Shown here: positions 49,808-56,529 of the stretch, one piece after another | Position numbering within the stretch: the stretch's first letter is position 1 | How the letters are laid out: each line of letters starts with the position of its first letter | Assembly (NCBI GenBank): GCA_009926205.1 | Contig: RFPI01000002.1 | Span: forward strand, 1-64,000 | Direction of reading: 5' to 3' | Length of the DNA stretch: 64,000 bases | Source: Methylophilaceae bacterium | GTDB lineage: Bacteria; Pseudomonadota; Gammaproteobacteria; Burkholderiales; Methylophilaceae | Translations under genes and position numbers: made by a program | The notes under the pieces: generated by a model | Databases searched by the model: none | The model's input: the letters and a program-made list of their open reading frames with translations, nothing else | Told to the model about the DNA's origin: nothing

Positions 49808-50119
49808 TTATTCAAAGTGGCAAACATAATCCAGGGTTTCCAGAATTTCGATATCAAAACTGGAGTTGCCCGGTACAGTAAACTTGTCGCCCTGCTGATA
49901 GGTTTTCCATTCGCTTTCACCCTGAAGCTTGACACGACAACTGCCAGAATTAATTTCCATCAACTCAGGCGCAGCGGTGTTGAAAGTTAGTTGCGCTGGA
50001 AACATCACGCCTATGGTGCTGCGCGTGCCGTTAGGAAACATGACTGTATGGCTAACACATTTACCATCGAAATAAACGTTGGCTTTTTTCTTTACACTTA
50101 CATTATCAAATTGCGCCAT
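49808..50119 (-). CDS. ppnP: pyrimidine/purine nucleoside phosphorylase
   Basis: Small cupin enzyme (103 residues) that phosphorolyses several nucleosides in E. coli (PpnP, DUF1255). The motifs [20 protein letters not shown] and [14 protein letters not shown], with the [12 protein letters not shown] cupin strand, match the family. It lies 10 bp after argG in the same direction. Confidence 0.9.
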
Positions 50120-50129
50120 ATTCAGCTCC

Positions 50130-51359
50130 TTATGCTTTATGTTTGCGGTTGGTTAAATTAGCGGCGATACGCATTCTTAAAGCGTTAAGCTTGATAAAGC
50201 CACCCGCATCACGTTGGTCGTAAGCACCTTGATCATCTTCAAAAGTCGCAATAGTTGGGTCAAACAAAGAGTCGGTTTTTGAATCACGTCCCACCACAAT
50301 CACATTGCCTTTATACAACTTCAATCTCACCCAACCGTTCACGCTTTGTTGCGTGTGGTCTATCAGTGCCTGTATGGCTTTACGCTCTGGACTCCACCAA
50401 TAACCGTTATAAATCATGCTGGCATAGCGTGGCATCAAATCGTCTTTGAGATGTGCGACCTCTCTATCCAAGGTCAGGGATTCAATGGCGCGATGCGCTT
50501 TCAGTAAAATGGTGCCGCCGGGCGTTTCATAACAGCCACGGGATTTCATACCGACATAGCGGTTTTCCACCAAGTCCAAACGACCGATTCCGTGTTTGCC
50601 ACCCAATACATTGAGAGCCGCCAATAACTCATGGGCTTTCATGGCCTTGCCGTTGAGGCTTATAGGGTCGCCATGGCGATACTCAAGCTCGATATATTCA
50701 GCTGCATCAGGTGCTTTTTCTGGGGACACTGTCCAACGCCACATCTCCTCTTCTGCTTCGGCAGCAGGGTCTTCCAAGTGGCGACCTTCATAGGAAATAT
50801 GGAGTAAGTTGGCGTCCATACTGTAAGGACTGCCCCCTTGCTTATGCTTCATCTCGACTGGGATGCCATGTTTTTCGGCATAAGCCAATAATTTTTCACG
50901 CGATAACAAATCCCATTCACGCCAAGGAGCGATGATATGGATGTTTGGATTCAATGCATAAGCACCCAATTCAAAACGCACTTGGTCATTCCCTTTGCCT
51001 GTAGCGCCGTGGGAAATCGCATCCGCATTCGTCTCACGCGCAATTTCAATCAAGCGCTTAGCAATCAAAGGACGCGCGATGGAGGTGCCTAACAGATACT
51101 CACCCTCATATACGGTATTGGCACGGAACATAGGAAACACAAAATCACGCACAAACTCTTCACGCAGGTCATCAATATAGATTTCCTTAACGCCGAATTT
51201 CTTGGCTTTTTCACGCGCAGGCTCTAACTCCTCGCCTTGACCTAGGTCGGCAGTGAAAGTCACCACCTCACATTGGTATTCGTCTTGTAGCCACTTCAAA
51301 ATGACTGAAGTATCCAAACCACCAGAGTAGGCCAATACGGCTTTTTTGATTTTGCTCAT
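50130..51359 (-). CDS. argG: argininosuccinate synthase
   Basis: ATP-dependent ligation of citrulline and aspartate. It is 409 residues, the short argG type. The PP-loop [10 protein letters not shown] is at about 10-19, and [15 protein letters not shown] and [19 protein letters not shown] are signature segments. It is 4 bp downstream of argF in an argD-argF-argG run. Confidence 0.97.
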
Positions 51360-51363
51360 TGTG

Positions 51364-52284
51364 TTAAACCTTTATTTTTCCCTTAACCAAATATTCCATT
51401 AGCGCTTTTTGCGTATGCAGACGGTTTTCTGCTTCATCCCATACCACGGAATGTGCGCCATCAATCACATCAGCAGCCACCTCTTCGCCACGATGGGCTG
51501 GCAGACAATGCATAAACAATGCGTCAGACTTGGCCACACGCATCATGTCTGCGTCCACCTGCCAATCGGCAAAGTCACGCATGCGCTCTTCGTTTTCCGC
51601 CTCAAAACCCATAGAAGTCCATACATCAGTGGTCACCAAGTCAGCACCACGAGCTGCTTCCATAGGGTCGGCAAATTGTTGATAGTGCTGATTGCTGTAC
51701 AAGCCAGCACGCTCAGGCTCTACTTCATAACCAGGCGGAGTAGATACATTGACATTAAAGTCCAATACCTCAGCGGCCTGCAGCCATGTGTTGCAGACAT
51801 TATTTGAGTCCCCTATCCATGCCACTGTTTTGCCCTGAATAGAACCGCGATGCTCAATAAAAGTGAAAATATCCGCCAAAATTTGGCAAGGATGGTATTC
51901 ATTGGTCAAGCCATTGATGACGGGCACGCGTGAATGCTTGGCAAAACGCTCAATAATCTCTTGCTCAAAAGTCCGTATCATCACCAAGTCGCTCATACGC
52001 GAAATAACTTGCGCAGCATCTTCAACGGGTTCACCACGACCTAATTGCGAATCACGCGTATTCAGATAAATCGCTGAACCCCCCAGTTGCTGCATACCCG
52101 CCTCAAAGGAGAGACGTGTGCGTGTGCTGGCTTTTTCAAAAATCATGACCAAGGTTCTATCGACCAAGGGCCAATACTGACGATAGGCTTTAAACTCGGC
52201 CTTAATCCAAGCCGTTCGCTGAAATAGATAATCCAGCTCATCTCGGCTTAAATCATTAAATTGTAGAAAATGTTTGATTTCCAT
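51364..52284 (-). CDS. argF: ornithine carbamoyltransferase
   Basis: Ornithine plus carbamoyl phosphate to citrulline. It is 306 residues. The carbamoyl phosphate site STRTRLSF (about 55-62), the HPCQILAD motif and the HCLPAHRG motif with the active Cys are present. It lies between argD (25 bp) and argG (4 bp). Confidence 0.97.
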
Positions 52285-52309
52285 GATGCTTCCTTAAGCA
52301 CAGCGCCTG

Positions 52310-53500
52310 TTATTTGGACGCGCTATGCTGTAAAAACTTCTTCACTACGGCGGATAGCTTGCTGACCAAGTGCGCTACTTCTGACTCATTGATGACCAAT
52401 GGCGGTAATAAACGGATGACGCGCTCAGCAGTCACATTAATCAGCATATGTTCTGCCAATGCAAGCTTCACCAGCTCGGCACATGGTCTGTCTAATTCAA
52501 CGCCTATCATCAAGCCGGCGTTGCGGATACTGACCACTTCAGGGGTGTCGGCAAACGCTGCACGGAAACCTTGAGCAATCAGATTGCCCATTTTGTCGGC
52601 ATTCTCTCTGAGCTTTTCCTCTTGAATAATACTCAGCGTCGCCAAACCTGCTGCTGTCGCCAGAGGATTACCGCCAAAGGTGGAACCATGTTTTCCAGGT
52701 GTGAAGGTCTCCGCAGCAACACCACGCGCCAAACATGCGCCAATAGGCACACCAGATCCGAGTCCTTTTGCTAAGGACATCACATCCGGTTGTATTTCAG
52801 TGTGTTGGAATGCAAACCAAGTGCCAGTCCGGCCTATACCCGTTTGCACCTCATCCACCATCAACAACCAGCCCTGCGTATCGCATATTTCTCTTAAAGC
52901 TTTGAGATATCCGGTAGCGTCATGTGGAATATTGATGCCGCCCTCACCTTGGACTGGCTCCACCAAGATAGCGACGACATTTTTGTTATTTAGGGCAACT
53001 TGTTTGACCGCCTCAACATCATCATAGGGCACACGCACAAAACCACTCACCAAGGGCTCAAAGCCGGCTTGTGCTTTACGATTGCCAGTGGCAGACAATG
53101 TCGCTAGGGTACGTCCATGGAAAGATTTTTCCATCACAATGATTTCTGGATTAGCCACGCCACGTTGATGCCCATACAAACGGGCCAATTTGATAGAGGC
53201 CTCATTGGCCTCACAACCAGAATTACAGAAGAACACCTTGTCCATGCCAGACACTTCGCACAACTTATCCGCCAACAACTCTTGTTCTCGAATATGGTAG
53301 ATATTCGAAACATGGATTAATTTAGCTACTTGTTGGTTGATTGCTTGTATCAGCTTGGGGTGGGCATGACCAAGACCATTTACGGCTACGCCTGATAATG
53401 CATCCAAATACTTCTCGCCATGATTATCAAACAGCCATACCCCTTCACCTTTTTCAAAAGTGACAGGCAATCTGCCATAGGTATTCATCAAATGTGACAT
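52310..53500 (-). CDS. argD: acetylornithine aminotransferase
   Basis: PLP class-III aminotransferase of arginine (and possibly lysine) synthesis. The start at ATG 53500 (MSHLMNTYGRLPV) gives 396 residues; the frame stays open to 53569, but that section overlaps a hairpin and T-run and has no suitable ribosome-binding site. ATG 53488 (MNTYGRLP) is an alternative. The PLP-binding FCNSGCEANEAS and the Lys-containing MSLAKGLGSGVPIGA are visible, and DEVQTGIGRTG is the family motif. It leads argD-argF-argG. Confidence 0.95.
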   Translation of the reverse strand: MSHLMNTYGRLPVTFEKGEGVWLFDNHGEKYLDALSGVAVNGLGHAHPKLIQAINQQVAKLIHVSNIYHIREQELLADKLCEVSGMDKVFFCNSGCEANEASIKLARLYGHQRGVANPEIIVMEKSFHGRTLATLSATGNRKAQAGFEPLVSGFVRVPYDDVEAVKQVALNNKNVVAILVEPVQGEGGINIPHDATGYLKALREICDTQGWLLMVDEVQTGIGRTGTWFAFQHTEIQPDVMSLAKGLGSGVPIGACLARGVAAETFTPGKHGSTFGGNPLATAAGLATLSIIQEEKLRENADKMGNLIAQGFRAAFADTPEVVSIRNAGLMIGVELDRPCAELVKLALAEHMLINVTAERVIRLLPPLVINESEVAHLVSKLSAVVKKFLQHSASK

Positions 53501-53566
53501 AAATCGCTCAAAAGTTAATTGCAGTAATTTTTTTGCCGAAATAAGGCCGGTAGCCAGTTCCAGACG

Positions 53567-53596
53567 CAAAAAAGAAAATGGCGGCCGTTTGCCGCC
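53567..53596 (-). terminator. intrinsic terminator in the argD leader
   Basis: Read on the minus strand, GGCGGC (53596-53591) pairs perfectly with GCCGCC (53585-53580) over a 5-nt loop, followed by ATTTTCTTTTTT. It lies about 70 bp before the argD ATG and inside the transcript expected from the promoter at 53641-53670. Confidence 0.6.
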
Positions 53597-53640
53597 AAGC
53601 GAAGATAAACATCCTTTTTGAACCTTATCTTGAACCCGTT

Positions 53641-53670
53641 ACTTTATCGCAAAACCACCTGCAAAATCAA
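53641..53670 (-). promoter_or_regulatory. sigma70-like promoter upstream of argD
   Basis: On the minus strand TTGATT (53670-53665) and TAAAGT (53646-53641) are separated by 18 bp, each 4 of 6 to consensus. Initiation near 53634 would place the terminator hairpin about 40 nt into the transcript. Confidence 0.45.
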
Positions 53671-53911
53671 GCAAATTCGGGCAATACAGGCAGATTGCCG
53701 GACTCTATGATGAGCATCCACTGAACTGGATTTGCCGAGCAAGGTCACAAACCATACAGATGACCCTCTATACAAAGCGCCCATCCGCCTTTGAGGCCAT
53801 TGAAGCCAGCTAAAATTTCACTTGAAAAAATTTGGGGTTAGGGCAAAATCATGCCCCTTTTGCAACCCCCTGATTGATTAAATTGAATTAGACCAAACAG
53901 AATAAACACTT

Positions 53912-55024
53912 ATGATTTCATCAAGCGCATTGGATTTGCAACTCAAGTTAAGCGAAACGCAGGTACAACTCCCCGTATCGTGGTACACAGATCCAGAAAT
54001 TTATCGACTCGAACAACAGCATATTTTTGCTCATGCCCCTAACTATATTGGCCATCAACTGATGGTGCCCAATCAGGGTGATTATTACGCACTTGAGTGG
54101 ATGAACAATGCCAAAACTTTGGTGCATCACGAGCAAGGCATCAGCCTAATGAGTAATATCTGCCGCCATCGCCAAGCCATCATGTTGGAGGGTAAAGGCA
54201 ATACCAAACATATCGTATGCCCTTTGCATCGCTGGACTTACAACATTCAAGGTGAGCTCATTGGCGCCCCTCATTTCAAAGAAAATCCTTGCCTGCACTT
54301 GACGCAAACTCCGCTAAAAAATTGGAATGGCTTGCAATTTGATGGCGCGCGTGACATTGCAAAGGATTTACAAGCTTTAGGTTGTAAGCAGGACTTCGAT
54401 TTCACTGGCTATATGCTGAATCGCGTCATGATAGAAGAATACAATTTCAATTGGAAAACCTTTATTGAAGTGTACTTGGAAGACTATCATGTGGGTCCCT
54501 TCCACCCCGGCCTGAATCAATTTGTGGATTGCGAAGAATTGCATTGGCAATTTGCCGATGAATTCAGCGTCCAAACCGTGGGCTTTAAATCTTCCCTCAA
54601 CCGCCCCGGCAGCCCTATTTACCAGCAATGGCAACAACAGGTAGCTCAATATCATGGAAAAACGCAGCCCAAGTATGGTGCTATTTGGATGGTGTATTAC
54701 CCCTTCTTGATGATTGAGTGGTATCCAAATGTATTGGTGGTTTCCAATATTATTCCGCGTGACGTCAATCATTGCACCAATGTGGTGGAGTTTTACTATC
54801 CAGAAGATATTGCCTTGTTTGAGCAAGCTTATGTGGAGGCTCAGCAAGCCGCTTACAACGAGACTGCCATCGAGGATAAGGAGATTTGCCAACGCATGCA
54901 TAATGGTCGCGTCGCCTTACATCAGCTTGGCGTCGACGAGCGCGGTCCTTACCAGCACCCCATGGAAACTGGGATGCAACATTTCCATCAATGGTTGCGT
55001 CAACGCCTGAACCCACACCTGTGA
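53912..55024 (+). CDS. Rieske non-heme iron oxygenase alpha subunit (CntA/choline-monooxygenase-like)
   Basis: A 370-residue Rieske oxygenase. The [2Fe-2S] ligands are C84/H86 (CRH) and C103/H106 (CPLH). The mononuclear-iron site is in EDYHVGPFHPG, with H193 and H198. The bridging position, three residues before the first His, is Glu190; the known carnitine monooxygenase CntA also has a bridging Glu there, while typical aromatic dioxygenases have Asp. That makes an N-methyl/quaternary-amine or similar substrate more likely than an arene, but this is inference. No dedicated reductase or ferredoxin is adjacent; the Rieske ferredoxin at 10.7 kb is far away. Its end overlaps the DMT transporter start. 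Confidence 0.85.
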   Translation: MISSSALDLQLKLSETQVQLPVSWYTDPEIYRLEQQHIFAHAPNYIGHQLMVPNQGDYYALEWMNNAKTLVHHEQGISLMSNICRHRQAIMLEGKGNTKHIVCPLHRWTYNIQGELIGAPHFKENPCLHLTQTPLKNWNGLQFDGARDIAKDLQALGCKQDFDFTGYMLNRVMIEEYNFNWKTFIEVYLEDYHVGPFHPGLNQFVDCEELHWQFADEFSVQTVGFKSSLNRPGSPIYQQWQQQVAQYHGKTQPKYGAIWMVYYPFLMIEWYPNVLVVSNIIPRDVNHCTNVVEFYYPEDIALFEQAYVEAQQAAYNETAIEDKEICQRMHNGRVALHQLGVDERGPYQHPMETGMQHFHQWLRQRLNPHL

Positions 55025-55881
55025 ACCAACAAAACTTAGGTAGTTTATGGATGCTGGCCGCGGCTTTATGTTTCGCGGTGATGGGGGCATTTGTCAAATA
55101 CTGCGGGGACTATTATTCCAGTGCCGAGTTGGTGTTCTATCGCTCTTTGTTTGGACTTTTGCTGATTTCCGCTTACGCCTTGTGGCGCAATCTTAGTATT
55201 CGTACCCCGCTGATTAAAAAACAAATCACTCGCTCGACATATGGATTTATTTCCATGGTGATGTTTTTTTATGCGCTCAGCCATTTACCGCTGGCGAGTG
55301 CTATCACCCTGAACTACACCTCACCTTTAGCGATGGCGACTATCCTCACCATTAGTCATCACGAAAAACCTCGCCCTATGCTAATCGCAGCTTTAGTGAT
55401 GGGTTTTGCTGGGGTGGTGTTATTGCTTCGACCCAGCTTGCATATGGATGAGTTACTCGCTGGTGGCCTAGGCTTGCTTTCAGGCATTCTCGCTGGCTTG
55501 GTATATGTCCATGTTATGCAATTAGGACGTGCGCATGAACCTGATTGGCGCACCGTGTTTTATTTCTCTTTGACTTGCAGCTTAGGGGGCGGGTTATGGA
55601 TGTTAATCCATGAGTATCATCCGCTACGCAGCGAAGATATCTTGCCCTTGCTCAGCCTAGGGGCATTTGCCACGATGGGGCAATTGACCATGACCCGCGC
55701 CTATAGAACCGGCAATCCATTTGTGGTCGGCAGTCTGGCTTATACCACCGTAGTGATTGCCAGCTTGATTGCCTATCTGGTGTGGCAAGAGACCATGTCT
55801 ACGCAAAGTTGGTTGGCGATAGGCGGGATTATCTTGGCTGGGCTGATTAGCGTGTACAGCAATACTCACCCCAAAAAATAG
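55021..55881 (+). CDS. DMT-superfamily (EamA) transporter
   Basis: Ten-helix drug/metabolite transporter with two EamA repeats, about 286 residues from GTG at 55021. That GTG overlaps the oxygenase stop (GTGA). The frame is also open back to ATG 54991, which would add an unlikely Pro-rich lead before the first helix (LWMLAAALCFAVMGAFVKYC). The halves are roughly 6-140 and 150-285. It probably exports a metabolite, possibly a product of the coupled oxygenase, but specificity cannot be read. Confidence 0.88.
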   Translation: MNQQNLGSLWMLAAALCFAVMGAFVKYCGDYYSSAELVFYRSLFGLLLISAYALWRNLSIRTPLIKKQITRSTYGFISMVMFFYALSHLPLASAITLNYTSPLAMATILTISHHEKPRPMLIAALVMGFAGVVLLLRPSLHMDELLAGGLGLLSGILAGLVYVHVMQLGRAHEPDWRTVFYFSLTCSLGGGLWMLIHEYHPLRSEDILPLLSLGAFATMGQLTMTRAYRTGNPFVVGSLAYTTVVIASLIAYLVWQETMSTQSWLAIGGIILAGLISVYSNTHPKK

Positions 55882-55887
55882 GCTGGC

Positions 55888-56529
55888 TTAAGGGTCAATC
55901 AAACCACAACGCATGGCAATCAAGGCCAGCTCTGCAGAATTATTGGCATTCAATTTTTGCTTGATATTGTAAAGATGGGTGCCCACAGTACGTGGCGATA
56001 AGCTCAAGGTATCAGCAATCTCGTTTGTCGTCTTGCCTTTGGCCAAGGCGATAAACACCTCAAACTCGCGATCTGATAACACATCCACCGGATTTTGTTC
56101 ACCATTTAGCTGTTGGATCGCCATTTGTTGGGCGATATTCGCCTCTAAATACATCTTGCGACTAGCCACGGTGCGTATGGCTTTAATGAGCTCTTCTGCC
56201 GCACTGCGCTTGGTCAGATACCCCATAGCACCCGCATTCAGAACACGTTTGGGATGCACTGAGTCCTCATGCGCTGACAGAATCAAAATTTTGGCATGAT
56301 TGTCTTTGGCAAGAATTCTATCGGTGGCTTCCATGCCGCCTATGCCTGGCATAGTAATATCCATTACCACCACATCGGGCTGATGCTCCATGTAAAGCTT
56401 GATGGCTTGTTCACCACTCTCTGCCTCAGCCACTACTTTGATGTCAGAAGCCGACTCAAGTAGCATACGGAATCCCATACGTACTACAGCATGATCATCC
56501 ACCAACATTACTTTAACCGGTTCACTCAT
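55888..56529 (-). CDS. NarL/FixJ-type response regulator
   Basis: A 213-residue two-component regulator: REC domain with acidic pocket D11/D12 and phospho-acceptor D57 (VVMDITMPG), and LuxR-type HTH near 150-205 (LSDREFEVFIALAKGKTTNEIA). It is the partner of the histidine kinase upstream, with their stop and start overlapping (ATGA). The target genes are unknown. Convergent with the DMT gene. Confidence 0.93.
   Translation of the reverse strand: MSEPVKVMLVDDHAVVRMGFRMLLESASDIKVVAEAESGEQAIKLYMEHQPDVVVMDITMPGIGGMEATDRILAKDNHAKILILSAHEDSVHPKRVLNAGAMGYLTKRSAAEELIKAIRTVASRKMYLEANIAQQMAIQQLNGEQNPVDVLSDREFEVFIALAKGKTTNEIADTLSLSPRTVGTHLYNIKQKLNANNSAELALIAMRCGLIDP

Follow-up and report, generated by a model that had tools for sequence, protein, structure and literature searches.

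The arginine biosynthesis genes argD, argF and argG are preceded, in the 64 000 nucleotides of bacterial DNA analysed here (the whole stretch, hereafter the window), by a GC-rich stem-loop and an adjoining U-run. To judge from the sequences compared, this is probably a promoter-proximal intrinsic terminator (attenuator) of argD-argF-argG, an inherited element occurring across a large part of the betaproteobacterial order. The hairpin with its U-run is real, and it is ancient. Its conservation as a stop signal suggests that bacteria in which no ArgR was detected may restrain their arginine genes by ending part of the transcripts early. For the control of arginine synthesis in betaproteobacteria without ArgR, the terminator ahead of argDFG is a candidate. 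The window contains the following features:

50130 to 51359, minus strand: argG, argininosuccinate synthase (PF00764, PF20979), by profile match
51364 to 52284, minus strand: argF, ornithine carbamoyltransferase (PF00185, PF02729), by profile match
52310 to 53500, minus strand: argD, class-III aminotransferase (PF00202), by profile match
53568 to 53578, minus strand: U-run TTTTCTTTTTT, from the sequence; its position behind the stem is conserved among relatives
53579 to 53597, minus strand: terminator hairpin TGGCGGC-AAACG-GCCGCCA, from sequence and scan; same stem in all 24 family genera sampled and in 22 of 39 further families
53568 to 53636, minus strand: predicted short leader transcript of about 65-70 nt, both ends predicted
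53641 to 53670, minus strand: weak sigma-70-like promoter, TTGATT with GATAAA or TAAAGT, from the sequence; the best local alignment places it on the promoter of 4 out of 13 relatives
53912 to 55024, plus strand: divergent Rieske/ring-hydroxylating gene, a neighbour outside the element, by profile match

The hairpin has the loop AAACG, and the U-run lies directly 3' of its stem, so that the sequence confirmed an earlier note, which had claimed a GC hairpin with a U-run on the minus strand ahead of argD. The combination of a GC-rich stem-loop and an immediate U-run that characterises intrinsic (Rho-independent) terminators is present in the window and conserved in relatives. The distance to the argD start codon (53500) is 78 nt from the stem and 67 nt from the U-run. 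A search of the 64 kb for the palindrome GGCGGC-N3..6-GCCGCC gave a single occurrence, and none of 100 shuffles of the window contained it. A generic terminator scan of positions 50000-56000 was near chance (8 found, shuffle mean 5.7) and the overall fold of 53660-53498 was no better than that of shuffles (z -0.36); the case for the hairpin therefore rests on its conservation and not on a single match. Rfam covariance models (riboswitch, T-box, leader) gave no match up to E 5 in 53300-54000, and none reached the gathering threshold in 20 loci.

The window's family was taken to be Methylophilaceae, and the family sample consisted of 123 argD upstream regions, the window and 122 relatives hand-picked to spread over genera from 171 other genomes with an argD match. 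Using a set of permitted stem variants that had been drawn up after reading the sequences, the stem was found within 250 nt ahead of argD in 103 of the 123 regions and in every one of the 24 genera. The 20 regions without this stem, where the hairpin is thus dispensable, were 19 of genus g6 and one of g11. A first detector, which required hairpin and U-run within 200 nt, identified 102 of 123 regions, with control values of 9/123 on the reverse strand and 20/605 in shuffles. An energy test for hairpin and U-run at -10 kcal/mol or better, from which L018 and L132 were left out, was passed by 91 of 121 family regions compared with 4 shuffled and 1 reversed; applied to 45 ORFs of the window it was passed by two, argD not being one of them. 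A lack of hairpin conservation, named beforehand as grounds for abandoning the proposal, is not what was found, since hairpin and U-run are conserved ahead of argD. Among members of genus g6 that lack both the hairpin and the upstream gene X described below, L063 has an inverted repeat AAAACCTTG..CAAGGTTTT around the -35, a possible operator, and a weaker form of it is seen in L042, L043 and L069 (both by eye).

Elsewhere in the order, 130 genomes were drawn, 93 of them with a match, and 88 regions from 39 families were examined; four genomes already in the family set and G284, located at a contig edge, were left out, while five regions (L024, L026 and L028-L030) came from an earlier set of relatives. 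The strict stem was found in 36 of the 88 regions, including a spurious one inside the upstream gene (L148), and the remaining 35 with the stem ahead of argD span 22 of the 39 families. Hairpin and U-run were detected by the energy test in 45 of the 88 (6 shuffled, 6 reversed), the other 43 lying below the cut. A second set was obtained with a pattern combining the stem and the argD start, with no U-run required, and comprised 119 contigs among the matches listed, probably overlapping the order sample in part (L300 and L268 have contigs equal in length to G287:C2 and G306:C8). Titles among these listed matches include Thauera, Azoarcus, Aromatoleum, Nitrotoga, Nitrosospira and Sulfuricella; a few MAG titles among them name other groups, going by titles only.

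The U-run stays in place relative to the stem. Of 137 family and order stems, 136 had T at position +9 counted from the core and 135 had T at +10 (these and the loop and pair counts below leave out L148 and the truncated L132), and in 119/119 each of the listed second-set contigs, for which U positions had not been used in selection. A U-rich tail followed the stem on the argD strand in 86 of the 119 contigs listed, compared with 7/119 on the opposite strand at the same sites; the count was 83/119 listed contigs when the frame was shifted by one base. The tail was absent from 33 of the 119 listed, and the T stretch was very short in L234, L241, L246 and L264 of this set. Most of 130 'other' palindromes of the second set proved to be the opposite strand of argD sites and were then counted separately; 12 palindromes not linked to argD in the contigs listed had a U-rich tail in 4/12 cases and TT at +9/+10 in 1/12.

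Changes within the stem are consistent with a structure acting as RNA. In the family, 32 stems with one to three changes contained 33 altered pairs, 30 of which could still pair while 3 were mismatched. The pairable changes were 17 one-sided wobbles, 11 two-sided Watson-Crick and 2 two-sided wobble changes; 11 of the 13 two-sided changes affect a single pair in genus g13, and g15 and g7 account for the remaining two. Outside the family, mismatches made up 54 of the 71 altered pairs, a count in which the best hit was forced in every sequence and most of these are chance hits. The loop was 4 nt long in 114 of 137 stems, otherwise 3, 5 or 6, and in 97 of the 119 second-set contigs among the matches listed. 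Beyond the six core pairs, pairing in the 137 stems exceeded that of shuffles at pair 9 (99 against 76.2) and pair 11 (87 against 63.7), and was not above shuffles at pairs 10 and 12. A DNA operator palindrome is disfavoured by the 30 of 33 altered family pairs that stay pairable and by the loop of 3-6 nt; this rejection is not absolute, because the loop is mostly 4 nt and 11 of 13 two-sided changes represent one pair in g13. A generic repeated terminator was also considered and set aside: when copies of the palindrome were counted in 25 genomes, 16 of them from the window's family, it was single-copy and identical with the argD hairpin in G000, G008 and G014. The single copy is another site in G012 and G015, whose argD stems are variants, and 11-18 copies were present in G002, G004, G009, G010 and G013.

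The promoter is less firmly placed than the hairpin. The pair claimed in the earlier note is present, as TTGATT at 53670-53665 and GATAAA at 53648-53643 with a spacer of 16, or with TAAAGT at 53646-53641 as an alternative -10 at a spacer of 18, but it is weak by consensus, matching 8/12 bases with either -10. It was missed by a consensus scan with a threshold of 9/12, which also gave no site between hairpin and argD and whose promoter-like sites were at chance overall (8 found, mean 9.2). An automatic hexamer pick chose a different pair, TTGCGA/GATAAG. The window promoter shares 13 bases, GGTTTTGCGATAA, with the conserved promoter of the relative L130; in comparisons with 13 relatives, the best local match of the window fell on their promoter in four (L130, L013, L007 and L103) and elsewhere or shifted in nine, including four of the neighbouring genus g20. 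A promoter-like TTGCnnAA..TTTTGnGnTAAnCT (or close) was present in nearly all of 23 family loci read by eye, before a small ORF described below, and several order regions had a promoter-like CTTGCA..GGCTAAATAT before the stem (by eye). By the automatic pick, the gap between the end of the -10 and the stem is 9-40 nt in families f7, f12, f15, f24, f36, f46 and f48; for others of the order the pick failed or fell far upstream. Conservation of an upstream promoter, the lack of which the earlier note had likewise named as a refutation, supports the attenuator less firmly than does that of the hairpin. In the window the start site is predicted; with transcription beginning near 53636, the RNA would be about 65-70 nt long. 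Further upstream, positions 53813-53850, a promoter-like stretch of the divergent Rieske gene, are 89-94% identical over 31-38 nt in three relatives.

What lies between promoter and hairpin differs among relatives. In 74 of the 123 family regions, a gene designated X, encoding a PuuD-like membrane protein (Urate_ox_N match, PF06181), is located directly upstream. The hairpin is present in all 74, and its median distance from the stop codon of X is 22 nt (15-50 nt in 72/74). A conserved small ORF (MKNPLDS..GT..SG..LT...) was observed between promoter and X, for example in L036, L002, L007, L008, L013 and L019; its start motif was found in 66 of the 74 X regions, its length is most often 34 codons, and by eye it is probably a single-span membrane protein. 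In genus g9 (L017, L126, L127, L128 and L129), another membrane-protein-like ORF of about 50 codons replaces X before the hairpin (by eye). The window has neither gene X nor the small ORF, and promoter and hairpin are side by side. The U-run adjoins the stem throughout, but the distance between stem and ATG ranges between 12 and 143 nt. This distance is 30 nt or less in 39 of 103 family regions (11 genera), in 18 of 35 other regions and in 66 of the 119 second-set contigs among the matches listed, for which the pattern allowed 12-42; such a gap is too short to hold a promoter together with a ribosome site, and transcripts of argD in these cases are therefore expected to cross the hairpin.

An arrangement in which, in 74 of 123 regions, the hairpin sits after the stop codon of the upstream gene, as the terminator of that gene would, speaks against an attenuator, and the hairpin might be the terminator of X, left behind where X is absent, as in the window. 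The invariable presence of the hairpin shortly after X agrees with this. X-less family regions nonetheless keep the stem in 29 of 49 cases (two of the 29 are contig ends where X would not be visible), and X was found in only two of the 88 other-family regions, both f50, yet of the 86 without X, 51 score as having a hairpin in the combined test, with L148 as a spurious case among them. Several of these X-less regions also have promoter-like sequence directly before the hairpin (by eye). The same hairpin before argD in families without X sets this explanation back as the whole story, and we consider it rather unlikely. The 67 nt between U-run and argD in the window could also hide an undetected promoter. 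A role other than termination, as a 5' UTR structure for mRNA stability, translation or binding of an Hfq/ProQ-type protein, would fit the short distance from the -10 to the hairpin picked automatically in several families, and a stem sequence that varies unusually little for a terminator, in part because of how the search was built; since the position of the U-run follows the stem rather than the start codon, we regard this as improbable.

The earlier note had left the choice between a small RNA and an attenuator. Conservation of hairpin and U-run favours the second, while the small RNA gained no support of its own: promoter-like sequence and terminator do frame a short transcript, but no conserved leader 5' of the stem was seen between genera (by eye) and there was no Rfam match, making a free-standing RNA of about 65 nt with trans targets very unlikely. 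That the hairpin is a fortuitous terminator-like sequence without a role is scarcely credible; the chance-level generic scans and overall fold would allow it, but the shuffled windows lacked the palindrome and its conservation across the family, the order and the second set refutes it.

With the hairpin as an attenuator, we infer a start site, a partial stop in the cell and a role in arginine control. RNA polymerase would start about 40 nt upstream of the stem and make a short leader; at the GC hairpin and U-run it would either release an RNA of about 65-70 nt or read through into argDFG. ArgD is required for arginine synthesis, and termination at the hairpin therefore cannot be complete. In the window, the stretch from the predicted start to the hairpin yielded neither a leader peptide nor an antiterminator, so that readthrough would most likely depend on a leaky terminator or on some factor acting in trans. 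No antiterminator arm was found within 45 nt ahead of the stem, where the best duplex was equalled by a fraction of 0.34 of shuffles. The earlier statement that no obvious Arg-rich leader peptide is present needs qualification, as an ORF of 46 codons with 5 Arg codons exists (53784-53644, minus strand); it ends inside the predicted -10, hence ahead of the predicted start, and counts only if transcription begins further upstream. A second ORF of 34 codons (53612-53508, minus strand) runs through the hairpin, contains 2 Arg codons and ends 7 nt before argD. Its start falls directly on the AAGG, closer than a ribosome site would normally lie.

Repression of arg operons by ArgR would serve the same purpose as the proposed attenuator, but ArgR (PF01316) was over the cut-off in none of 41 genomes, with two weak partial matches; a control search gave a match in 9 of 14 known genomes. 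In an excerpt of a published article, ArgR is described as highly conserved in many gammaproteobacterial groups and absent in other classes (PMC5343134).

The attenuators of the trp, his, leu and thr operons consist of a promoter, a short leader and an intrinsic terminator ahead of a biosynthetic operon, and the element before argDFG, with its predicted promoter and leader, resembles them in these parts. To our knowledge, arginine is not among the classical cases of ribosome-mediated attenuation. The window differs from this type in that an antiterminator was not found and the sole Arg ORF between predicted start and hairpin is the one running through the hairpin, with two Arg codons. In attenuation of the pyrBI type, the terminator is located just before the first structural gene. 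This is also true of the window, with its terminator just before argD and the 34-codon ORF passing through the hairpin; unlike pyrBI, the spacing of the AAGG is unsuited to a usual ribosome site, and in some relatives the predicted transcription start is just a few nt away from the hairpin.

Naville and Gautheret (2010; PMC2965389, as excerpted) described premature intrinsic terminators that are conserved 5' of gene families, a trait shared by the argD hairpin, as well as 3' terminators exapted as 5' regulators; the terms argD, arginine and ornithine did not appear in its main text as available. An excerpt on Burkholderia cenocepacia reports 82 short 5' UTR transcripts, some arising by attenuation (PMC5688073), and arginine and acetylornithine were absent from its main text as available. 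Term searches of the accessible parts of PMC3110155, PMC5688073 and PMC4176332 gave nothing of this kind on argD. Among the literature matches listed, no title or abstract opening named an attenuator at argD, and no earlier arginine leader-peptide attenuator was found.

Betaproteobacteria, seemingly without ArgR, might control argDFG by an old, undescribed attenuator with a fixed terminator and an exchangeable sensing part, a broader proposal that we put forward tentatively and consider doubtful. The terminator would be bare, and leaky or factor-controlled, in the window and many other families; two genes would lie between promoter and terminator in most family members; and one genus would have a true arginine leader-peptide attenuator. 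That genus, g10 of the same family, may combine the same terminator with an apparently classical leader peptide containing Arg codons and an antiterminator, and is a natural comparison for the terminator with and without a sensing module. Of an antiterminator fold, whose covariation in related genomes the earlier note had suggested looking for, no sign was found in the window, and a candidate was found in this genus.

All six g10 genomes (L020, L090, L091, L092, L093 and L094) contain, before the argD terminator, an ORF of equal length (28 codons) with 4-5 Arg codons, one of them with a GTG start. An upstream arm can pair with the 5' arm of the terminator at -9.7 to -15.9 kcal/mol and lies 1-2 nt after the stop codon of the ORF in five, L091 using a different arm that overlaps the ORF end. 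Pairing of six or more arm bases at -9.5 or better, a threshold chosen with these six genomes already in view, was found in 6/6 compared with 3/130 other leaders; L018, L132 and L148 were left out of the antiterminator, leader-ORF and arm-pairing counts. Between 6 and 44 of 300 shuffles were as good as the g10 pairing. The duplex of leader and 5' arm beat 95% of shuffles in 3 of 62 X-less leaders, all of genus g10, and did not in the other three g10 genomes. The list of leader ORFs, which required a ribosome-site score and several Arg codons and is incomplete, has entries outside g10 that look like ends of neighbouring genes or chance ORFs. No coding constraint beyond the shared core was detected in the ORF of these six related genomes, with 68 synonymous and 242 non-synonymous codon differences over pairs and differences at codon positions 1-3 of 189, 182 and 227 of 405; alternatively, the ORF may encode a small basic-tailed membrane protein. 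The candidate leader ORF, with several codons for the product of the pathway, and the predicted antiterminator arm at its stop codon are further features in which g10 resembles the trp/his/leu/thr type.
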